In this document: positions 6,540 through 47,034 of the stretch, piece by piece
Layout of the letters: each line of letters begins with the position of its first letter
Numbering within the stretch: the first letter of the stretch is position 1
Assembly: GCF_032118995.1 (NCBI RefSeq)
Contig: NC_092656.1
Span: forward strand, 13,258,261-13,322,260
Length of the DNA: 64,000 nucleotides
Direction of reading: 5' to 3'
Source of the DNA: Asterias amurensis
Taxonomy: Eukaryota > Echinodermata > Asteroidea > Forcipulatida > Asteriidae
Program-made: the position numbers and the translations under genes
The notes under the pieces: generated by a model
The model's input: the letters and a program-made list of their open reading frames with translations, nothing else
Databases searched by the model: none
What the model was told of the DNA's origin: nothing

Positions 6540-6741
6540 GTTGATATGAATTGGAAGTGCGCAAAACAACGTTCTGGTGACCTATGCAACTTTCTTATGT
6601 GTTTTCCTTCATGCCTTAAAGTCGAATGAAACCTTTAAGTCGCACTTTTCCTTTCATTCCCAACAAAGTTATTAGTAATTAGCCAGTGAAATAATTCACA
6701 CAGCCCGATATTGGTGTTAGACGCACTGTGCTGTCGGTATA
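6540..6741 (+). promoter_or_regulatory. Conserved 5' flank of GPCR-2
   Basis: Blocks ATATGAATTGGAAGTGCGC, CTTTTCCTTTCATTCCC and ATTGGTGTTAGA recur in the same order upstream of GPCR-3 (reverse complement of 17799-18000), while sequence between them differs. This looks like a shared promoter or 5' UTR. No convincing TATA box is seen. Confidence 0.55.
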
Positions 6742-7863
6742 ATGAACACCATGGACGAAGACTCTCTGACCCAATTCAATGATACCACGGGGGCACCTGT
6801 CAACACGTCACCTATTTCCTACAAGAGTCGCATCTTTATAGCCTGCATTGAAATCTTGGTCACCATCCTGGGCCTCGTAGGTAACAGTCTCGTCATCTGG
6901 TCCGTCATCCTGTCCAAGAAACTCCGCACCGTGACCAACGCCTTCGTGGTCAACCTCAGCGTGGCTGATTTCTGGACCAGTCTCTCCTACCCGTGGACTT
7001 GCGTAGCTTTGCTGAGCCACGAAAGCTGGCCCTTGGCGTCAGAGGTTCCGTGTGTCATCGCTGCCGTTCAGGTTTACACAGGTATCGGTGCGAGTATGTA
7101 CTCGTTGGCCTCCATAGCTTTGAACCGCATGGTCCTCATCACTCAAACCACGAATACCTACAGTTGGTGGTACACCCCTCGTAAAGTAGCCGTCATGATC
7201 GCAATGACTTGGGTTATCCCGTGTGTTGTGTTTTTCCTCCCGCTGCTTCTTGGCATAGGTGCGATTGGGTATGATCCACATAGCCATACGTGTACTGACA
7301 AAGATGATCATCTTAGAGGCTCTGAATACAACCTGGCACAATCTTTGGGGTTTTTGCCAATCCCAATGCTCATCATCATCTGTTGCTACACGGCTATCTA
7401 CATCCATCTCAAACGACACTTCAGGAAACAGAAAAAGAGCAGATCTGTCAAGAACATTCAGTCAATCTCCACAGCGGTGGGTTTGGATGGTAAAACGTCC
7501 ACCAAGTTCACTGTTGCCACTGGGGAATCGTCAGTGACTAATGCTGAGCACGTCTCCAAGAAAGCCAGGCAGGCCATCAGCCGTCAGCAACTAGCTATCA
7601 CCAAGAACCTCTTCCTTGTGTTCTGCATCTTCACATTGTTGTTGTCTCCTTACTTCATCTCTCACTCTATACCATCTAGTCGTTGGTTTGTTCTCTACGC
7701 AGGTACCATTGCTACTTTTAACAGCTGCGTAAACCCGATCATCTACGCCGTCAACCACCCACAGTTCCAAGTCGTACTGTGGAAGATAATTACGTGTCGT
7801 TACTCTGAAATACAAGAACCTTCAGATTTACTGAAATTCTTGCTGTCGTTGAGAAACAATTAA
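6742..7863 (+). CDS. Rhodopsin-class GPCR, complete, intronless (GPCR-2)
   Basis: 373 codons. The ATG at 6742 opens MNTMDEDSL, matching the start of GPCR-3; the second ATG at 6751 is possible. The N-terminus is short, with an NDT glycosylation site. TM1 (about 30-55) has GNSLVIW, TM2 NLSVADFW, a Cys just before TM3, and TM3 ends LNRMVLI instead of DRY. TM4 has MTWVIP, ECL2 has a Cys, and TM5 is PIPMLIIICCY. A basic ICL3 of about 80 residues follows. TM6 is LFLVFCIFTLLLSPYF, without the CWxP Trp, and TM7 has NPIIY. It is predicted to be a plasma-membrane receptor coupling to G proteins. Its ligand is unknown. Confidence 0.95.
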   Translation: MNTMDEDSLTQFNDTTGAPVNTSPISYKSRIFIACIEILVTILGLVGNSLVIWSVILSKKLRTVTNAFVVNLSVADFWTSLSYPWTCVALLSHESWPLASEVPCVIAAVQVYTGIGASMYSLASIALNRMVLITQTTNTYSWWYTPRKVAVMIAMTWVIPCVVFFLPLLLGIGAIGYDPHSHTCTDKDDHLRGSEYNLAQSLGFLPIPMLIIICCYTAIYIHLKRHFRKQKKSRSVKNIQSISTAVGLDGKTSTKFTVATGESSVTNAEHVSKKARQAISRQQLAITKNLFLVFCIFTLLLSPYFISHSIPSSRWFVLYAGTIATFNSCVNPIIYAVNHPQFQVVLWKIITCRYSEIQEPSDLLKFLLSLRNN

Positions 7864-10649: not shown

Positions 10650-10766
10650 TTGCTAGGAGTCCACTGGGCCAGCGCCAGTTGGTGCAAGTTCGCGCCAAAT
10701 ATTATGTGATTGGCGCGTAGTGGCTCGCTGTGGCGCCGAATTAATGTCCGCTCGGCATGTGTCGCC
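10650..10766 (+). repeat. GCGCCA-rich repeat, left part
   Basis: Contains repeated GCGCCA/TGGCGC words. It is split from 12586-13362 by the P-like element; GTGTCGCC at 10759-10766 is the left copy of its target duplication. Confidence 0.6.
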
Positions 10767-10767
10767 A

Positions 10768-10919
10768 TAGACCTTATCGCAAATACCAATGCGCAAGCGC
10801 AGACTGTTGAATGAGGTGCATTGTGGGATATATATGAATCAAATTTTGCTACCAGCTAGACCACAATGCATCTAATTCCAAGCTTTACGCGCGCGCCCCA
10901 GTATTTGCGAAAAGGTCTA
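10768..10919 (+). mobile_element. MITE family D, copy 1 (TA-flanked)
   Basis: 148 bp between TA dinucleotides: GACCTTATCGCAAATACC at the left and GTATTTGCGAAAAGGTC at the right. Related copies are at 10998-11147 and 46883-47034. A TA target suggests a Tc1/mariner-type source. Confidence 0.88.
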
Positions 10920-10997
10920 TGCACGGCAAAAACTGTACACGCTTGTAATGAACGAACGCTAGCGGGCGCTCTGTTTCTCTGATTTAGATCAGACATA

Positions 10998-11147
10998 TAC
11001 CTTATCGCAAATACCAATGCACAAGCGCAGACTGTTGAATGAGGTGCATTGTGGGATAGATATGGATCAAATTTGGATACCAGCTAGACCACAATGCACC
11101 TAATTCCAAGCTTTACGCGCGCGCCCCAGTATTTGCGAAAAGGTCTA
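10998..11147 (+). mobile_element. MITE family D, copy 2
   Basis: Nearly the same sequence as copy 1, in the same orientation, 78 bp downstream. The first bases have changed (TACCTTATCGC). The pair with its spacer behaves as one block inside the P-like TIR. Confidence 0.87.
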
Positions 11148-11352
11148 TTGATCTCCATTATACTGACTGGATAGGACATCGCGTCCAAACGCAGGCCGCG
11201 CGCGTATTTTTTAAAACGGGTGAAGACCGTTCGTCACACGAAGAGCGTTGTAAACTTTTAAACGGAGTTGCTGCAAACAGGGAGAAGTTTTCGTCCTTTT
11301 AATTGTCATTTTGGGGATTTAAAATTTTGGAATCGGATCAAACAAACTAAAA

Positions 11353-11435
11353 ATGCTTATGGTGAAGGTGTGCGCGGCTGTTAATCGCCGGAGGAGGGAA
11401 AACTGGGTCGGCAAATGGATTGTCTTTCCATAAAA
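11353..11435 (+). pseudogene. Decayed THAP-domain-like first exon in the P-like element
   Basis: The ATG at 11359 gives MVKVCAAVN, and the +1 frame at 11414-11434 gives NGLSFHK followed by a GTAAGT donor. THAP zinc fingers start M-x-x-C-x-A-x-x-C and reach SFHxFP after a short loop, so the two pieces fit that pattern with one frame change between them. A possible next exon after TTCCGTTACAG (11595) reads GFLESTRTG. The element context (P-type ends) supports a THAP transposase origin. Confidence 0.5.
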
Positions 11436-12585
11436 GTAAGTAGGCCTTTGCATTTTGTGTAATGATTCATATTATTATAATATCTAACGTTACAAATATT
11501 AGGCAGGAAATTTAAACTATCATTCATAGAAATAATTATTAAAGGCCAAGTATTTGTTATTTTATCGAGCAATTTTTGTTTTCATTCCGTTACAGATGGT
11601 TTTCTGGAATCGACGAGGACGGGAAGCTCGGATTCCGACAATGTGTTCGGCTGACATAATGTGTTCGGCTGACATAATGATATAGCATCAATAATTCAAA
11701 GGTTCGGAAAGCGACAAGTATACGAATTCGATAGCATTTAAGACGGTACAGTAATAGTTCGTTGAGAGAATCAGTCGTCCCAGAAATGGCCAGCTTCGTT
11801 ATTTGTGACCGAAATAAAAGTATTTATTTCTGGCTGAACAGTAAAAAGGTTATGGAAGTTTTGCCGTTGGGATTGTTTTTCACTAAAAGGGTTAAATTCG
11901 TTAATTGAGGCAACTCTCAATTATCACATTGTTGTTATCTTTCTTGTCCTTTTCCCTAAATATTAGCGAGTATGTAGTACTCTAGTCTTAGTTTGCATAG
12001 GCCTAACCCCTCGAATTTTAAATTATAGGAGCGACTCTTGTTTTGTCTTTAAGTTTACATGGTTTATTGTCAGTTTCTCAATGAACTGAAAGAATTAAAA
12101 AAAACATGTACCTGAATCCCAATACAGTTTCTCGTCCGAGTTTTTGTTTAGAAATGTGTCATTGTCATAATATTAAAAGGGCATTTGATTGACAAAAATG
12201 TACAGTATCATTAGTTTGCATTTCAATCAGAAACTTTTTCATACTTATCAATGGGCGTGGTCCATTTGATTGGGAAACTTCAGCAAAAATACGATAGCAA
12301 TATATCAATTAATAATCTCCTTATTATTATTTCTATTCTCAATTTACAAAAATTAGCAAATTAGACGACGCTCTCCTGACCTCTTTGTTAAGTTCCCCAG
12401 CAGAAGCTTTAGGAGGAAAATCTACCACAAGTACAACTTTAACTGATAGACTCAAACTCGACCAAGTGCACATTAATTTACCCGTTTGAAGGAATTGCGC
12501 CGCCATTGTTCGGCCGCGTGTTTATGCACGCAGCATAGCGCAATGTCCTATCCAGTCAGTATAATGGAGATCAATGTGTGTCGCC

Positions 12586-16679: not shown

Positions 16680-17798
16680 TTATTCATTCTTTCGCAATGA
16701 CAGCAAGAATTTCAGTAAATGTGAAGGTTCGCGTATCTCAGAGTAACGGCACGTAATTATCTTCCTCATTACCACTTTGAACTGTGGGTGATTGACTGCG
16801 TAGATGATGGGGTTTACGCAACTGTTCAAAATAGCGATGGCACCTCCATAGACCGCAAACTTACGGCTGGATGGTATAGCGAGAGAGATGAAGTAAGGAG
16901 ACAGTAATATTGTGAAGACGCAAAACACAAGGAACAAATTCTTGGTGATGGCTAGTTGCTGATGCCTGATGGCCCGTTTTGCTTTCTTGGAGACGTGTTC
17001 TGCATTAGTCACTGAAGACTCCCCAACAGTGAACTTGGTGGACGTTTCACAATCCAAACCAACCGCTGTGGAGATTGACTGACTATTCTTGACAGATCTA
17101 GTCGTCTTTAGCTTCCTGAAGTGTCGTTTGAGATGGATGTAGAGTGCCGTGTAGCAACAGATGATGATGAGCATTGGGACTGGGTAAAGACCTACAGATT
17201 GGGCCAGGTTGTATTCGGCACCTCTTGGGTGACCATCTTTATCTGAACATGTATTGTCTTGTGGATCGTACCCAAAAGCGCCAATGCCCAAAATCGGCGG
17301 GAGGAAAGTCACAACACACGGGATAACCCAAGTCAATGCGATCATGACGGCTACTTTACGAGGGGTGTACCACCAACTGTAGGTGTTCATTGTTTGAGTG
17401 ATGAGGACCATGCGGTTCAAAGCTATGGAGGCCAAAGTGTAAAGACTCGCACCAAGACCGGTGTAAAACTGCACTGCAGCGATCTGGCAAGGAACTTCGG
17501 ACTCTAACGGCCAGCCATCGTGGCTCAGTCCGGCGACACAAATCCACGGGTAGGAGAGGCTGGTCCAGAAATCAGCCACGCTGAGGTTGACCACGAAGGC
17601 GTTGGTCACGGTGCGGAGTTTCTTGGACAGGATGACGGACCAGATGACGAGACTGTTTCCAACGAGGCCGAGGGTGGTGACCAAGATAGCCAAACAGGCT
17701 AAAGCAATGCGAATATTGTAGGGATAGGGCGACGAGTAGGCGGGTGTTCCCATTGTATCATTGATTTGGTGCAGAGAATCTTCGTCCATATTGTTCAT
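16680..17798 (-). CDS. Rhodopsin-class GPCR, complete, intronless (GPCR-3)
   Basis: Read on the minus strand, the start at 17798 gives MNNMDEDSL, aligned with GPCR-2; an in-frame ATG at 17819 would add seven residues (MYLAVDK) and is less likely. About 372 residues. The same landmarks are present: GNSLVIW, NLSVADFW, LNRMVLI in place of DRY, LTWVIP, PVPMLIIICCY, a long basic ICL3, TM6 ending LLSPYF, and NPIIY. TM2 to TM3 is identical to GPCR-1 over more than 40 residues, while the WWYTPRK loop follows GPCR-2. It is the only copy in inverted orientation. Ligand unknown. Confidence 0.95.
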   Translation of the reverse strand: MNNMDEDSLHQINDTMGTPAYSSPYPYNIRIALACLAILVTTLGLVGNSLVIWSVILSKKLRTVTNAFVVNLSVADFWTSLSYPWICVAGLSHDGWPLESEVPCQIAAVQFYTGLGASLYTLASIALNRMVLITQTMNTYSWWYTPRKVAVMIALTWVIPCVVTFLPPILGIGAFGYDPQDNTCSDKDGHPRGAEYNLAQSVGLYPVPMLIIICCYTALYIHLKRHFRKLKTTRSVKNSQSISTAVGLDCETSTKFTVGESSVTNAEHVSKKAKRAIRHQQLAITKNLFLVFCVFTILLSPYFISLAIPSSRKFAVYGGAIAILNSCVNPIIYAVNHPQFKVVMRKIITCRYSEIREPSHLLKFLLSLRKNE

Positions 17799-18000
17799 TT
17801 TATCGACAGCTAAATACATCTAACACCAATGCCAGGTTGTGTGAGTTAATCAAGAATGGTATATTTGGATAAACATTGATATTAATATCCTTGGCGGGAA
17901 TGAAAGGAAAAGCTTATTTTGAGGTTTTTTAAAGAAAATATGTATAACTGAAAAGGTTGTGTTTCACAAGAACACTGATTGGCGCACTTTCAATTCATAT
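17799..18000 (-). promoter_or_regulatory. Conserved 5' flank of GPCR-3
   Basis: On the minus strand it carries ATATGAATTGAAAGTGCGC, CTTTTCCTTTCATTCCC and GGCATTGGTGTTAGA in the same order as the flank of GPCR-2. Confidence 0.55.
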
Positions 18001-20090: not shown

Positions 20091-20386
20091 TCAAAACATT
20101 CACTACACCAATGATAAGTTATACCAGTTATACCAGTTATGCGGACATAAAGAAAACCAATATGCCTATCACTGGCACAGGGAAGTAACTTTCATTTTCC
20201 CCAACATTAACATAAGTCACCAACTTGCCAAAAGTCTCAGCATCCCGAGTACAACAAGGAAGTTCTTCATGATTAAGTACCAACAGTCACGAAAACCACA
20301 CAGTGTTAAACTCAGATATAACGGTTCAAAGCTCGACCAAAATTTGCATTTGTGTTTAGAAATATCAACGAGGCGATACGAGCAAT

Positions 20387-21493
20387 ATGGAGAACTCCAC
20401 GCTAAGGCAAGTCAATGATACTATGACGACAACCGCCTACTATTCACTGTACCCCTATAAGGCTCGTGCAGGCTTGGTTATCGTATGGGTCGTAGCCTCT
20501 ATCCTCGGCCTCGTTGGAAACAGTCTCGTCATGTGGTCCGTCATCCTGTCCAAGAAACTCCGCACCGTGACCAACGCCTTCGTGGTCAACCTCAGCGTGG
20601 CTGATTTCTGGACCAGTCTTTCCTACCCGTGGATTTGCATAGCTTTGGTGAGCCATGAAAGCTGGCCCATGGAGTCGGAGTTCCCGTGCATTCTGGCTGC
20701 CATTCAGCTCTACACCGGTCTGGGAACCAGCTTTTACACATTGGCTTCAATCGCTTTGAATCGCACAGTCCTCATCACTCAACCACTGCATACCTACCGC
20801 TGGTGGTATTCCCCGCGTAAAGTAGCCGTCATGATCGCAATGACTTGGGTTATCCCGTGTATTGTGTTTTTCCTCCCGCCGCTTATGGGCATAGGCTCCA
20901 TTGGTTACGATCCACAAGACAATACATGTTCAGATAAAGATGGCCACGAACGAGGTCCCGAATACAACCTGGCACAATCTGTGGGTCTATACCCAATCCC
21001 AATGCTCATCATCATCTGTTGCTACACGTCACTCTATATCCATCTCAAACAACACTTTAGGAAGCAACAAAAGATGAGATCTATGAAAAGCAGCCAATCC
21101 TTCTCTACAGCGGCAAGCATGGACGGTGAAGCATCCACCAGTTTCACAGTTACCGCAGGGGAGTCAGCCTCTTCTCAACGCGTCGCTAAGAAAACCAAGC
21201 GGGCCATCAGTCGTCAGCAGCTCGCTATCACCAAGAACTTGTTTCTGGTGTTTTGCATCTTCACGCTGTTGATTTCACCCTATTTCATCTCTCTGGCTAT
21301 ACCTGGTAGCCGCGTGTTTGCTCTACCCGGAGTAACCATCACCGCTTTCAATAGCTGTGTAAACCCCATCATCTACGCAGTCAATCACCCACAGTTCAAA
21401 GTGGTAATGCGGCAGATAGTAACGTGTCGTTACACTGAGATACAGGAGCCCTCAGATTTACTGAAACTCTTGCTGTCATTGCGAAAGAAGTAA
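20387..21493 (+). CDS. Rhodopsin-class GPCR, complete, intronless (GPCR-4)
   Basis: 368 codons from MENSTLRQVNDTM (with N-glycosylation motifs) to TAA. It is the most divergent of the four at the N-terminus and in TM1 to TM3 (GNSLVMW, LNRTVLI at the DRY position). It shares WWYSPRK and the GHERGPEYN ECL2 segment with GPCR-1, and a C-terminal tail (VMRQIVTCRYTEIQEP) nearly identical to GPCR-1 at both protein and DNA level. NPIIY is present, and TM6 ends LISPYF. No intron. The upstream region has TTTCATTTTCCCCAACA, faintly like the other GPCR flanks. Confidence 0.95.
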   Translation: MENSTLRQVNDTMTTTAYYSLYPYKARAGLVIVWVVASILGLVGNSLVMWSVILSKKLRTVTNAFVVNLSVADFWTSLSYPWICIALVSHESWPMESEFPCILAAIQLYTGLGTSFYTLASIALNRTVLITQPLHTYRWWYSPRKVAVMIAMTWVIPCIVFFLPPLMGIGSIGYDPQDNTCSDKDGHERGPEYNLAQSVGLYPIPMLIIICCYTSLYIHLKQHFRKQQKMRSMKSSQSFSTAASMDGEASTSFTVTAGESASSQRVAKKTKRAISRQQLAITKNLFLVFCIFTLLISPYFISLAIPGSRVFALPGVTITAFNSCVNPIIYAVNHPQFKVVMRQIVTCRYTEIQEPSDLLKLLLSLRKK

Positions 21494-24589: not shown

Positions 24590-26790
24590 GAGGGGCCTGG
24601 GTCCAATGGGATTGGGTCCCAGGGGGCAGGGTCCAATGGGATGGGGTCCCAGGGGGCTGGGTCCAATGGGAATGGGTCCCAGGGGGCTGGGTCCAATGGG
24701 ATGGGGTCCCAGGGGGCTGGGTCCAATGGGATGGGGTCCCAGGGGGCAGGATCCAATGGGATGGGGTCCCAGGGGGCAGGGTCCAATGGGATTGGGTCTC
24801 GGGGGGGGGGGACTGGGTCCAATGGGATTGGGTCCCAGGGGGCTGGGTCCAATAGGATTAGGTCCCAGGGGGCTGGGTCCAATGGGATTGGGTCCCAGGG
24901 GGCTGGGTCCAATGGGATGGGGTCCCAGGGGGCAGGATCCAATGGGATGGGGTCCCAGGGGGCAGGGTCCAATGGGATGGGGTCCCAGGGGGTTGACTCC
25001 AATGGGATTGGGTCCCAGGGGGTTGGGTCCAATGGGATTGGGTCCCAGGGGGCTGGGTCCAATGGGATGGGGTCCCAGGGGGCAGGATCCAATGGGATGG
25101 GGTCCCAGGGGGCAGGGTCCAATGGGATGGGGTCCCAGGGGGCAGGGTCCAATGGGATGGGGTCCCAGGGGGTTGGGTCCAATGGGATGGGGTCCCAGGG
25201 GGCAGGGTCCAATGGGATGGGGTCCCAGGGGGCTGGGTCCAATGGGATGGGGTCCCAGGGGGCAGGATCCAATGGGATGGGGTCCCAGGGGGCAGGGTCC
25301 AATGGGATGGGGTCCCAGGGGGTTGAGTCCAATGGGATTGGGTCCCAGGGGGCAGGGTCCAATGGGATGGGGTCCCAGGGGGCTGGGTCCAATGGGATTG
25401 GGTCCCAGGGGGCAGGGTCCAATGGGAATGGGTCTCAGGGGGCAGGGTCCAATGGGAATGGGTCTCAGGGGGCTGGGTCCAATGGGATAGGGTCCCAGGG
25501 GGCTGGGTCCAATGGGATTGGGTCCCAGGGGGCAGGGTCCAATGGGATGGGGTCCCAGGGGGCTGGGTCCAATGGGATTGGGTCCCAGGGGGCAGGGTCC
25601 AATGGGAATGGGTCTCAGGGGGCAGGGTCCAATGGGAATGGGTCTCAGGGGGCTGGGTCCAATGGGATAGGGTCCCAGGGGGCTGGGTCCAATGGGATTG
25701 GGTCCCAGGGGGTTGGGTCCAATGGGATTGGGTCCCAGGGGGCAGGATCCAATGGGATTGGGTCCCAGGGGCTGGGTCCAATGGGATGGGGTCCCAGGGG
25801 GCTAGGTCTAATGGGATTGGGTCCCAGGGGGTTGGGTCCAATGGGATGGGGTCCCAGGGGGCTGGGTCCAATGGGATGGGGTCCCAGGGGGCTGGGTCCA
25901 ATGGGATTGGGTCCCAGGGGGCTGGGCCCAATGGGATTGGGTCTCGGGGGGGGGGGGGCTGGGTCCAATTGGATGGTGTCCCGTGGATCTGGGGCCAATG
26001 GGATGGGGTCCCAGGGGGCTGGTCCAATGGGATTGGGTTCCATGGGGCTGGGTCCAAAGGGAATGGGTCCCAGGGGGCTGGGTCCAATGGGATTGGGTCC
26101 CAGGGGGTTGGGTCCAATTGGATTGGGTCCCAGGGGGCAGGGTCCAATGGGATTGGGTCCCAGGGGGCTGGGTCCAATGGGATTAGGTTCCAGGGGGCTG
26201 GGTCCAATAGGATAGGGTTCCAGGGGGCAGGGTCCAATGGGATTGGGTCTCAGGGGGCTGGGTCCAATGGGATTGGGTCCATGGGGGCTGGGTCCAAATG
26301 GATTGGGTCCCAGGGGGCTAGGTCTTATGGGATTGGGTCCCAGGGGGCTGGGTCCAATGGGATTGGGTCCCAGGGGGCAGGATCCAATGGGATGGGGTCC
26401 CAGGGGGCTGGGTCCAATGGTATTGGGTCCCAGGGGGCAGGGTCCAATGGGATTGGGTCCCAGGGGGCTGGGTCCAATGGGATTAGGTCCCAGGGGGCTG
26501 GGTCCAATAGGATAGGGTTCCAGGGGAAAGGGTCCAATGGGATGGGGTTCCAGGGGGCAGGGTCCAATGGGATTGGGTTCCAGGGGGCAGGGTCCAATGG
26601 GATTGGGTTTCAGGGGGCTGGGTCCAATGGGGTAGGGTCCCAGGGGGCTGGGTTCATTGGGAATGGGTCTCAGGGGGCAGGGTCCAATGGGAATGGGTCT
26701 CAGGGGGCTGGGTCCAATGGGGTAGGGTCCCAGGGGGCTGGCTCCAATGGGAATGGGTCCTACAGGATGGGTCCAATGGAATTGGTTCCC
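24590..26790. repeat. 30-bp G-rich minisatellite, about 73 units
   Basis: The unit is GGGTCCAATGGGATTGGGTC followed by CCAGGGGGCT, and most copies are exactly 30 bp. Variants (GGATGG/GGATTGG/GGAATGG; GGCT/GGCA/GGTT) form blocks: about 180 bp at 25381-25560 recurs at 25561-25740, and a three-unit block recurs near 24900, 25050 and 25230. Two G-runs (24801-24812, 25943-25957) break the pattern. The unit length is divisible by three and free of stops in several frames, so long open frames appear on both strands; they are not evidence of a gene. Confidence 0.97.
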
Positions 26791-26847
26791 AGCACACAGC
26801 AAAAAGTACCAAAAGGTTCGTCGTGATTCAGAGTGTCTCTCCAATTA

Positions 26848-34274: not shown

Positions 34275-37200
34275 ATGCCGTATAATAAACTAAAGGTATG
34301 TTTTTTGTATTGTACTTATGCAGTATTCATCAATATGAATGTTATACATAGCAACTTGGACTTTCCAAGGAAGATGGAAAGTTGTGCGGACTGCGGTGGC
34401 CAGGTTAGTTTAGATGAGATCAAACAGCTTGATACAAAATTTGATGACATTACATAAAAATACTTATTAAACACTTTGTTGATCATAGAGCTCTATGGTT
34501 GAGATACACCAAGTGAAAAGACTGGTCTTTGACAATGAGCCAAGGTGTTTTGTGTCTATCGGTGTCAAGCATTTCATCAAGTGTTTGTTGTTGTTTCTCT
34601 TAAAGGCAGTGGACACTAATGGTAATTACTCAAAATAATTATTTGCATAAAACCTTTCTTGGTGAAGAGTAATGGGGAGAGGTTGATGGTATAAATCATT
34701 GTTAGAAATGGCTCCCTCTGAGGTGCCATAGTTTTTAAGAAAGAAGTAATTTTCTACGAATTTGATTTCGAGACCTCAGATTTAGAACTTGAGGTCTCGA
34801 AATCAACCATCTAAGTGGACACAACTTCGTGTGACCATGGTGTTTTTTCTTTCATTATTATCTCGCAAGTTCAAAAACCGATTGAGCTCAGATTTTCACA
34901 GGTTTGTTATTTTATGCATATGTTGAGATACACCAACTGTGAAGGCTTGTCTTTGACAATTAGCAAAAGTGTCCACTGCCTTCAGGCTTAAACTGACAGC
35001 CTCATACTCTCTTTAATGGGATTTACAAAGATGACTTATTTTGCCTACGAGTCATCATCTGTGCTTCCTGTAATATTTTTGAGATATTTTAAAGCTTGAG
35101 AAGAGTAGTATGGAATGAATGTTGACTTGAATTGAAAGGTACTGGACACAATTGGTGTTCAAGCATATGAAAGCACACAACTTTATGCTACAAGGGAGAT
35201 TTGTCTTCGCAACTTCAACGACCAATTGAGACCGAATGTTCACAAGTTTGATACAATTGTATGCATATATGTAGAGATACACCAAGTGAGAAGACTGGTC
35301 TTTGACATAGTGTCCAGGGTGACCTATTTGCCCTTCATCATCTGCGCTTAGTATTTCGCTTATCTGTAATATTTTGTATACATCTTGAGCAGATCAGAGT
35401 GTATGCAAAAAATGTTGACTTGAATTAAATTGAAATTAATATTTTTATTTAGACGCGGGAGGATTTTGAAACAGGGACAAACATTGATTTTATTTATAAC
35501 TTTCTGAACAAAAACAGGTTTGGAATTTGAGAAGAGAGTTGAGTTTCTTCGGTGTAGAAACGTGTGTTGACTGTGGCGAGATTGCAGGGATATGTCAGGT
35601 AAGCTAATCTATTGTAGTATTCCAAGGCAAAATGCATTAATAAATAAATTTCAGTCAACTGACACAGTTTAACAGGTTAACTATTTGAGCTATTTGTAAA
35701 GCGCTAAAAGAGATAGTTTAGGTGGTTATTAAATCGAATATATTAATACTATTATTCTTATTTTATTAAGGTATAACTGGGTCTCAATCTAACAAAAGTT
35801 TTAATCTCTACTCGAAATTCCAAACGAAACAAAGATAATGGTTCCTGTCGCTTTGAGTTAAAAAAAAGGACGCTTAAAACATCTCAGTAAATGGAATGAT
35901 TGTAGTTTTTAAGTGAATTTTGCACCGAAAGTAAATTTCGCCCAGAAAGTTTGAAAAATATTGTCTTTTTAGTTATTTTATTCCCAACGACTTGTAGTTT
36001 ATTTTGAATCATCATTCTGACGTCAGAAAAACTGTTTCCGTCTTGTTTTGATCTATAGCACTGGCTTCATCTGTACACGTACCTGGAACCTCATACTCTG
36101 ATGCCCTTATCCCATGGGATACAGTAAGTGCACTTATTACCACTAGAAAATGAACAAGTAAACAATTATAGACTTTCTTCACATTTAATTACTTAAATAT
36201 TAAAGGTTGGGAAATTATGGGTGTTTTTTGAAACCATTTCAGTTGAAAAATCCATCATGGAATAATTTGTTTCTTAATTTCTTTTATCAGGAGAGCATCC
36301 CTCCGTTTCCACCTTGAGCAAAATGCTTCGTTGGAAATACATTCCGACCAGCTACCTCAGACGTCATGGCTTGAAACACCTCTATCACCATCAGCGGCTT
36401 TGAGAAACAAGTTCGGATACAGATGCCAATTTGCTCCCGTGTGGAGTTCAACAAGAGCATCACAACCTTCGATGTACTCAAGACTAGAAGGCAAGGTCAC
36501 CCCGTCCCAAATGGTAACTCAAATACATCAGTTACAGACAACGCCTTCAGTATCCAACATACAGCTGGAAAGTTGTCAGCAGCAGCGATATCCACACCAA
36601 CTTCAGCAGTCAAAACAAAAACACAAACAGCAGAAACCTCAATCTCTGCAAAGGAAGCTGCAACAAGTTCCCGCCGTTAAACCGACAACAGCTTCACCAG
36701 AAACACCACAAGTAGCAAACAAACCAGATGTATCTAAACCACAAGCAAAATCTGCACCTTCAAAAATAGCCTCCAAAGTGCCGGTATCGACACCACCCCC
36801 AGCAGCAATAGAGGTCATATCAACTGGTAAAGAAGCTGCAACAGCAGTACCAACAGCAACTGCTGTGCAAGAAGCAGTTGCACCAGCAGCAGCAATAGAG
36901 ACAGGATCAACTGGTAAAGCAGCCACAACGGTAGCAACAACAGCAACTGCTGTGCAAGAAGCAGTTGCGCCAGCAGCAGCAATAGAGACAGGATCAACTG
37001 GTAAAGCGGCCACAACAGTAGCAACAACAGCAACTGCTGTGCAAGAAGCAGTTGCGCCAGCAGCAGCAATAGAGACAGGATCAACTGGTAAACCATCACA
37101 AACAGCAGTACCAACAGCAACTGCTGTGCAAGAAGCAGTTGCACCAGCAGCAGCAATAGAGACAGGATCAACTGGTAAAGCAGCCACAACAGTAGCAACA

Positions 37201-39033
37201 ACAGCAACTGCTGTGCAAGAAGCGGTTGCGCCAGCAGCAGCAATAGAGACAGGATCAACTGGTAAACCATCACAAACAGCAGTACCAATAGCAACTGCTG
37301 TGCAAGAAGCAGTTGCACCAGCAGCACCAATAGTGACAGTATCAACTGATATTAAAGCAGCTGAAATAGCAGCAGCAACAGCAACTGCTCTGCTAGAAGC
37401 AGTTGCACCAGCAGCAGTAATAGAGACCACATCAACTGGTCAAGCAGCTGCAACAGCAGCACCAGCAGCAACTGCTGTGCCAGAAGCAGTTGCACCAGCA
37501 GCAGCAATAGCGACAGTATCAACCGATATTAAAGCAGCTGAAATAGCAGCAGCAACAGCAACTGCTCTGCTAGAAGCAGTTGCACCAGCAACAGTAGTAG
37601 AGACCACATCAACTGGTCAAGCGGCTGCAACAGCAGTACCAACGGCAACTGCTGTGCAAGAAGCAGTTGCACAAGCAGCATCAATAGTGACAGGATCAAC
37701 CGATAAAGCAGCTGAAATAGCAGCACCAGCAGCATCTGATGTGCCAGAAGCAGTTGCATCGGCAGCACCAATAGTGACAGGATCAACCGATATTGCAGCT
37801 GAAATAGCCGCACCAACAACAGCTGCTTTTCAAGAAGAAGTTGCAACAGCAGCAGCAACGGCAACTGCTGTGCTGAGGGTAGTAGCATCACCTAGCCAAC
37901 AACAATCGACAACCAAAGACAAGTCATCCATAGCACAAAGGTCAGCTTTAACATTGGCACCAAAAAGGTCTGCGTTTGCAACAACGTCATTATTTTCAAG
38001 ACCACCATCTGATGTGACAAAAACTGCAGCCCCAGAGTCGAAATCTGCAATTCCAGTACAACACCCAAGGGTAGAGACACCAAAACCACAATCATCTGCA
38101 GCAGCTTTGCCAGCAGGAGCCCAAGCAGCCTCAACCACATCCTCTCAGGGAAGTTCTCCAGGTCAACAGCAATCAGAGCACACCTCACCAAAGCAGCCCA
38201 AACAACGGTTCAGTCCTGTGACTCAAGTTTTGGATGATTACCTGCAAGGAATCAATATTCCTTCGATTGAGCAGTCCGATCTTCAGCATCCTCCTCAGGG
38301 TCAGGTTGTACTTGGGCAAGGTGCTCATGGAGGTGTCTTGTTGATGCTTTATAACAATGAACACGTAGCTGTCAAATGTGTACCAACTGGGGATAAAGAC
38401 ACTGTGGATAGAGAAGTTCGGATCCTATCTGTTCTCTCTGAACACGATAGTTTCCCAAACGTACATGGAACTATAGAGGCTGGTCAGTTTAGGGCAGTTG
38501 CTATGCAGTTCATTGGCGATGAAGCATCAGCTAGGTGTCTCACATTAGGTGAAGCTCTTACTGGGTCTAGAAGTTTGACCTTAGACCCGGCCGATTGGCG
38601 ATCCATTGCCATGAACGTGGTTGATGGAATCAAACACATGCACTCTGAAGGGCTGCTACACAATGACATCAAGATGGACAATATACTGATGTCATATGAC
38701 ACCCCGACACATCGCTGGCGTGCATATGTGATTGATGTAGGTGTGGCTACAACAACGAATGCCCCAAGAAACTATGTTCTAACAAGTGAGGAAAAGAAAA
38801 AGTATCGCCGGTTTCACGGCCATATCGCTCCTGAAATGGTCGATAATGCAGAGCACCAGTCCATCCAAAGTGATATTTTTCAACTTGGCTACGTTCTCCA
38901 TAGCATCGGCCAGTTTGGAGCAGTTCCATTTCTAGAGCAACTTGGTGATAAATGCAAATCACGAGATCCTTCAGAGCGACCTGAGATGACTCATGTGCGA
39001 TATTGCATTAAAAATAACATCTTCATTCAGTAA
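34275..39033 (+). CDS. Multi-exon protein kinase with long Ala/Thr/Val-rich tandem repeat
   Basis: My model joins 34275-34295, 34352-34403, 35519-35598, 36059-36123 and 36291-39033. Every junction has AG and GT, and the phases agree, giving about 986 residues starting MPYNKLK. A start further in (34374) would not keep frame with the later exons. Residues about 70-250 are Gln/Ser/Thr/Pro-rich; about 255-600 are some 13 units of about 29 residues (AVQEAVAPAAAIETGSTGK plus a variable tail). From about 735 there is a kinase domain: LGQGAHGGV loop, VAVKCV lysine near 767, HND instead of HRD near 862 (LLHNDIKMDNIL), DVG instead of DFG near 887, APE near 918, SDIFQLGYVL. Catalytic Lys and both Asp are kept, so activity is plausible. 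Ser/Thr specificity and role are unknown. Confidence 0.82.
34490..34546 (+). mobile_element. MITE family A, small right-end fragment
   Basis: GTTGAGATACACCAAGTG and GACTGGTCTTTGACAAT only, inside intron 3 of the kinase gene. Confidence 0.7.
34600..34984 (+). mobile_element. MITE family A, copy 8, intronic
   Basis: TTAAAGGCAGTGGACACTAA to AAGTGTCCACTGCCTT; near full length, in the kinase-gene intron before 35519. Confidence 0.9.
35132..35323 (+). mobile_element. MITE family A, copy 9 (internally deleted), intronic
   Basis: GAAAGGTACTGGACACAATT to CATAGTGTCCAGGGT; the inner half is absent. Confidence 0.82.
36835..37885 (+). repeat. Coding tandem repeat, about 87-90 bp unit, in the kinase gene
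   Basis: About 13 units with GCAACTGCTGTGCAAGAAGC followed by AGTTGCACCAGCAGCA. The copies keep frame. Long open frames on the opposite strand are a by-product of this in-frame, CAG-rich repeat. Confidence 0.93.
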
Positions 39034-46882: not shown

Positions 46883-47034
46883 TAGACCTTTTCGCAAATA
46901 CAGGGGCACGCGCGTAAAGCTTGGAATTAGGTGCATTGTGGTCTTGCTGGTATCCAAATTTGATCCATATATATCACAGAATGCACCTCATTCAACAGTC
47001 TGCGCTTGCGCATTGGTATTTGCGATAAGGTCTA
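46883..47034 (-). mobile_element. MITE family D, copy 3 (TA-flanked)
   Basis: Between TA dinucleotides: GACCTTTTCGCAAATAC at the left and GTATTTGCGATAAGGTC at the right; reverse of copies 1 and 2. Confidence 0.9.

Follow-up and report, generated by a model that had tools for sequence, protein, structure and literature searches.

The window, by which we mean the whole stretch of 64,000 nucleotides analysed here, lies at C9:13258261-13322260 of the genome that we searched, that of the starfish Asterias amurensis (491.5 Mb, 23 contigs). It contains three related rhodopsin-type receptor genes, at 6721-7860 (+), 16683-17819 (-) and 20360-21490 (+), each made of one open frame matching 7tm_1 with E of about 1e-39 to 1e-42. 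A long open frame at 36247-39030 (+) encodes an Ala/Thr-rich stretch from an 87-bp tandem repeat and then a protein kinase domain, and at 24591-26792 a 30-bp unit is repeated about 73 times in a 2.2-kb array, with several frames open on both strands. Between the first two receptor genes lies an inserted unit of 1,811 bp with CA...TG ends, which is about 1,430 bp long once a nested block is removed. Its features, in window coordinates, are the following.

10766-12576, plus strand: whole inserted unit, delimited by its sequence, by comparison with other copies and by the duplication analysis
10758-10765, no strand: left 8-bp target-site duplication, TGTGTCGC, with its register fixed by other copies
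12577-12584, no strand: right 8-bp target-site duplication, TGTGTCGC, from other copies and the duplication analysis
10766-10767, plus strand: CA, the opening two bases of the left TIR, severed by the nested block, recognised from intact left ends elsewhere
10770-10917, plus strand: first nested MITE, 148 bp, with TA on both sides (10768-10769, 10918-10919)
10922-10994, plus strand: 73-bp spacer, fragment of another dispersed repeat (95-98% over 65-66 nt, flanks of L020 and L071)
10998-11145, plus strand: second nested MITE, 148 bp, with TA on both sides (10996-10997, 11146-11147)
11148-11183, plus strand: remainder of the left TIR, TTGATCTCCATTATACTGACTGGATAGGACATCGCG, from inverted-repeat and repeat searches
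11211-11221, plus strand: left subterminal inverted repeat, 11 bp with 1 mismatch, with an 8-bp core AAACGGGT at 11214-11221
11359-11435, plus strand: THAP-like first-exon remnant, frameshifted, with a GT donor at 11436; THAP identity without Pfam confirmation
11596-11650 (end approximate), plus strand: possible remnant of a second exon, preceded by an AG acceptor (WFSGIDEDGKLGFRQ), from the sequence and from weak tblastn similarity of a sister-subfamily copy
12480-12490, minus strand: right subterminal inverted repeat, TTCAAACGGGT
12539-12576, minus strand: right TIR, 38 nt, reading inward CATTGATCTCCATTATACTGACTGGATAGGACATTGCG, from the inverted-repeat search and other copies

The TIR of the unit is near-perfect, its left end having about the same letters as its right one. 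The original prediction had given 35-bp ends with one difference: the near-perfect inversion holds, and the length becomes 38 bp. The inverted arms detected in the window measure 37 nt (11147-11183 and 12539-12575) and are 97% complementary, and a 32-nt part of the unit's end occurs twice in the window, where shuffling gives an expectation of 0 (100 shuffles). The same nine letters, TGTGTCGCC, flank the unit on both sides. Since the first base of the element equals the next flanking base, a reading shifted by one base, GTGTCGCC, is possible, and this was the register first proposed. Nearly all other copies begin with CATTG and finish with CAATG (the exceptions being CATTT in L007-type copies, CCTTG in L010 and the damaged right end of L024). 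Hence, the element includes the first C on the left, and the duplication, which is exact on both sides as had been predicted, is TGTGTCGC. The ends of the family can be given as CATTGATCTCC....

The left TIR is split two bases in by the nested block. The presence of nested MITEs had been correctly recognised; there are two, both flanked by TA and 95% identical to each other within a 155-nt direct repeat. The spacer between them is taken for a fragment of another repeat because similar sequence adjoins the copies L020 and L071. The interruption of its left TIR so close to the end probably leaves the window copy unable to move as it now stands. A third copy of the 148-bp MITE, also flanked by TA, is found in the window at 46885-47032; the MITE has ends near GACCTTATCGCAAATACC and GTATTTGCGAAAAGGTC.

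The unit had been expected to have relatives in the genome, and they are numerous. The 26-nt TIR end, allowing up to 3 mismatches, matches 247 places (115+132), and the reversed pattern matches none (0+0), which excludes chance. Longer patterns that separate left-type from right-type ends gave 141 and 165 matches, mutually overlapping, and the 1,431-bp core of the window unit matches at least 137 pieces (40 of 194 candidates scored). We assembled 45 rows for the analysis of duplications, omitting junctions inside the arrays L054, L055 and L058, adding one array site manually, replacing L001 (flanked on the left by the nested MITE) by the true window site and counting rows with identical flanks once. 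This left 36 distinct sites with both ends read. A duplication is present at 32 of them, 31 being exact over 8/8 and one, L086, over 7/8. A different length of duplication was looked for, as it would speak against the prediction, and no duplication among the 32 reaches 9 bp. The four sites lacking a duplication are L011, L018, L024 and L064, L024 being the copy with the damaged right end. The targets follow the motif GTnnnnAC, with G at position 1 in 20 of the 32 sites (p=4e-6), T at position 2 in 19 (p=2e-4), A at position 7 in 18 (p=4e-4) and C at position 8 in 24 (p=1e-10), and they are palindromic (p=0.005, shuffling within sites). The window unit is thus a copy of a genuine cut-and-paste transposon family with relatives throughout the genome.

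The family comprises two subfamilies. Subfamily A, to which the window copy belongs, has 7 rows; the window copy differs from the others by 0.9-1.05% (L002 and L003), 1.6% (L007 and L009), 2.7% (L004) and 6.0% (L012). For subfamily B, after removal of array rows, exact duplicates and L010, we aligned 27 copies and obtained a consensus of 1,276 bp. These copies are young: they lie at a median of 1.04% from the consensus (range 0.39-3.7) and at a pairwise median of 1.9%, a low divergence that implies recent movement. Between the two subfamilies (L002 against the B consensus), 11.4% of 1,221 aligned sites are substituted, and there are indels in addition. In the B consensus, the TIR is perfect over 34 bp and identical at 37/38 positions. 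This consensus also has an 11-bp subterminal inverted repeat, of the sequence TTCAAACGGGT, 66 and 87 from the two ends, a length reached by 3/300 shuffles; in subfamily A this repeat is exact over 8 bp only, which 70-71 of 300 shuffles reach.

The THAP-like first exon starts with MVKVCAAVN or MVKSCAAVN and ends with SFHK before a GT, and this text is kept in both subfamilies. The text and the donor had been correctly identified in the window copy; the two pieces do not form one reading frame, MVKVCAAVN standing in one and SFHK in another. The same 64-nt offset, and so one common frameshift, is found in 52 of 54 distinct exon contexts (array units and segmental duplicates each counted separately). 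Of the two others, L090 has one nucleotide more and is still out of frame, and L004 has a further 10-nt deletion that restores the frame and removes the cysteine stretch. None of the 54 contexts has an intact exon: 53 are out of frame and L004 is without its cysteines. The simplest reading is that two nucleotides were lost at the second zinc-binding cysteine position before the subfamilies A and B split, this position being assigned by analogy with THAP proteins. Read through the frameshift, the exon has no THAP match in Pfam, a test that has no power on so short a query, since exon 1 of human THAP1 itself scores only E=0.06 and gives nothing once one cysteine is masked. A search of the PDB with the first exon of the family returned two chance-level matches only, to fungal-type enzymes.

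In subfamily B, the piece that looks like a second exon has a weak match (tblastn, 27% over 45 residues, E=0.02, from one of many queries) to the second THAP exon of a P-type gene in this genome. Six of the THAP matches listed are no more than about 4 kb away from a P-type place; five start at profile position 27-29 and the C18 one at 17, and the C10 match, among those five, sits on the opposite strand. This suggests that these P-type genes may likewise split their THAP domain near there. The protein search with the first exon found 107 places in the genome. Two of them, C1:23587489 and C3:9053179, are open frames of 40 residues that match the query along its entire length and might contain an intact exon.

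Where is the transposase? P-type transposase domains are present in the genome (PF21787 at 23 places, PF12017 at 14 and PF21788 at 14, many of them sharing a gene). Some of these loci are about 98% identical to one another, and two places have long open frames, of 751 aa (C5) and 788 aa (C1). We compared 26 P-type places with 119 of the 247 TIR places, on 13 contigs and among the matches listed. None of the three domains lies less than 8 kb from any of these TIR places. The closest pair is separated by 8.6 kb (PF21787), or 8.2 kb via PF12017 of the same gene, and the TIR of this pair is part of L027, a complete copy that has a duplication of its own; the next closest P-type gene among the places compared is 28.9 kb from a TIR. 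In 33 P-type loci, taken with about 1.5 kb on each side and partly overlapping, no TIR was found even when 8 of its 26 positions were allowed to differ. An 18-nt TIR probe found one match with 4 mismatches in these loci (L044), which by our estimate is about chance level, and other types of TIR with 8-bp duplications gave only weak, chance-like pairs (L045 and L046). The P-type copies compared on C5, C4 and C17 show no TIR, only boundaries of introns or insertions.

The original prediction had expected a longer relative with the same ends, carrying a THAP domain and a P-type transposase. No such autonomous element was found among the matches listed for TIR ends with up to 3 mismatches, and the longer copies that we read are nested or tandem-array forms. 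The 11.8-kb candidate at C9:17.31-17.32 Mb is a copy filled with nested tandem DNA, in which no transposase-like reading frame stood out by eye. Those at C10:18.52, 18.61 and 18.70 Mb are 1.2-kb tandem arrays, and L012 (2,256 bp) and L007 (1,794 bp) contain extra inserts. The unpaired left ends on C12, C13 and C17 (L088-L090) look like ordinary copies, each breaking off within its 1.5 kb stretch. Shorter deletion forms also exist, namely L086 (791 bp) and L087 (568 bp).

We read the window unit, with a probability of about 0.78, as one member of a P-MITE-like family that is not autonomous and for which a P-type transposase acts in trans. The family consists of many short two-ended copies of high identity with no coding capacity, as MITEs do. 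Its 8-bp duplications at 32 of the 36 sites, its CA...TG ends, which combine a TIR with a subterminal inverted repeat (P-superfamily TIRs being expected at about 13-31 bp), and its palindromic targets are all as in the P superfamily, the target motif being common to hobo and hence not discriminating. The duplications, the end anatomy and the THAP-like exon text support part of the P-element-like reading first made. The P superfamily is also characterised by a transposase of RNase H fold with a GTP-binding insert, encoded between the ends, which was found at none of the 119 of 247 TIR places compared. Such an absence is expected for non-autonomous copies, so that membership in P is by the ends only. 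Most likely, the family would descend from an internally deleted P-superfamily element, the transposase of which started with a THAP exon. Its copies, having retained both ends (34-38-bp TIR and 11-bp subterminal repeat), would then be served in trans by an enzyme, probably of P type, cutting with an 8-bp stagger at GTnnnnAC-like targets.

A non-autonomous hAT element of the hobo/Ac kind, with the THAP-like exon a chance or captured sequence, is an unlikely alternative. The ends usually read C/T-A-A/G-n-G in hAT elements, and the hAT MITE Mar has CAG(G/A)GGTAGGC; in the starfish family they begin CAT, with T as the third base at all ends listed except the damaged right end of L024. The 34-38-bp TIRs and the subterminal repeat look P-like, and the end sequence of the starfish family is unlike that of hobo/hAT. 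The hobo/hAT elements are not known to carry a THAP exon, whereas here the exon text is present in both subfamilies, with its donor at what we take to be the THAP1-like place; that Pfam does not call THAP would fit a hAT element, if the test had power on a piece so short. The genome does contain 18 hAT-dimer matches; the 13 of them that lie on contigs with TIR places in the comparison are all at least 245 kb from such a place. The CAT ends, the long TIR with its subterminal repeat and the THAP-like exon thus favour P over hAT. The latter stays as a rival, since neither the length of the duplication nor the target motif tells P and hAT apart: 8-bp duplications and GTnnnnAC-like targets are typical of hobo too (GTNCGNAC; PMC3276498).

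Instead of an autonomous transposon, a stationary, host-owned gene for a domesticated P transposase of the THAP9 kind could also mobilise the P-type ends. Mobilisation in trans by such immobile genes is possible since the family is young, yet no partner transposon was found, and the P-type places with long frames (751 and 788 aa) adjoin, as far as compared, no TIR that matches. In zebrafish, THAP9 excises elements whose ends do not resemble those of Drosophila P, but it did not transpose elements (PMC10983969). Moreover, several P-type loci of the starfish are near-identical and multi-copy, as mobile genes are, a pattern that segmental duplication could also produce. We regard this explanation as improbable; if true, it would mean that a domesticated transposase is still driving insertions in a living animal genome.

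The starfish family can be set beside known systems. Unlike in Drosophila P, no transposase was found in the starfish copies read, and the TIR sequence differs as well. The closest published parallel is the P-MITEs of Anopheles gambiae, present in 5-310 copies of 205-2,450 bp (Quesneville et al. 2006, PMC1562414, in the excerpts available). These share the P-type ends, the 8-bp duplications and an interior without a full transposase. Unlike the starfish family, they are connected with autonomous masters sharing their ends, although for the subfamilies P1 and P6 PMC1562414 reports that an autonomous element with TIRs and coding capacity was not identified. The starfish family differs further in keeping a THAP-like exon remnant inside. 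Zebrafish Pdre2, according to parts of PMC10983969, likewise has CAT ends (5'-CATACCTGTCAAC, against CAT...ATG here) and 8-bp duplications, and Pdre elements, which have a THAP-type transposase, also form many internally deleted copies outside insects, with a subterminal inverted repeat of 12 bp against 11 bp here. Unlike the starfish family, Pdre2 has a 13-bp TIR of another sequence and a full-length element with transposase. Its description also qualifies the initial remark that P elements outside insects are less often described at sequence level. Drosophila P, as presented in sections of PMC7776569, shares the 8-bp duplications, the 11-bp subterminal repeat and the internally deleted non-autonomous copies, and has a 31-bp TIR against 34-38 bp here; its palindromic target GTCCGGAC (PMC3276498, Table 4) resembles GTnnnnAC. 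Among echinoderms, a preprint on a sea-cucumber genome mentions, in the portion available, THAP9-like genes with a Tnp_P_element domain (PMC13228809). In the open-access full-text literature, as represented by listings and the starts of abstracts, we recognised no publication describing the family. It adds a P-like, probably recently active and well-measured non-autonomous family to those outside insects, and its ends could be used as bait for the active transposase. Being of an ordinary type, it changes no general view on its own.

Some observations concern the genome at large. The THAP family is very large (417 candidates, of which 150 were scored, those listed all lying above the cut-off). 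Dozens of the listed matches are in a single frame and score almost alike, which suggests that a repeat bearing THAP is present in many copies. At C3:10734949-11963261, 11 TIR matches, every one on the minus strand, follow one another at spacings of about 68-296 kb, as would be seen if they travelled within a large block that is repeated. Finally, L054 (C10:18522492-18528734), L058 (C10:18609066-) and L055 (C10:18697331-) have common flanks and the target-site duplication CTCTCGAC, and consist of head-to-tail arrays of a truncated element unit, in most cases close to 1.2 kb long. L054 contains 5 left-hand ends, L058 has 4 and L055 has 3. The three arrays represent a transposon turning into a tandem repeat inside a segmental duplication.
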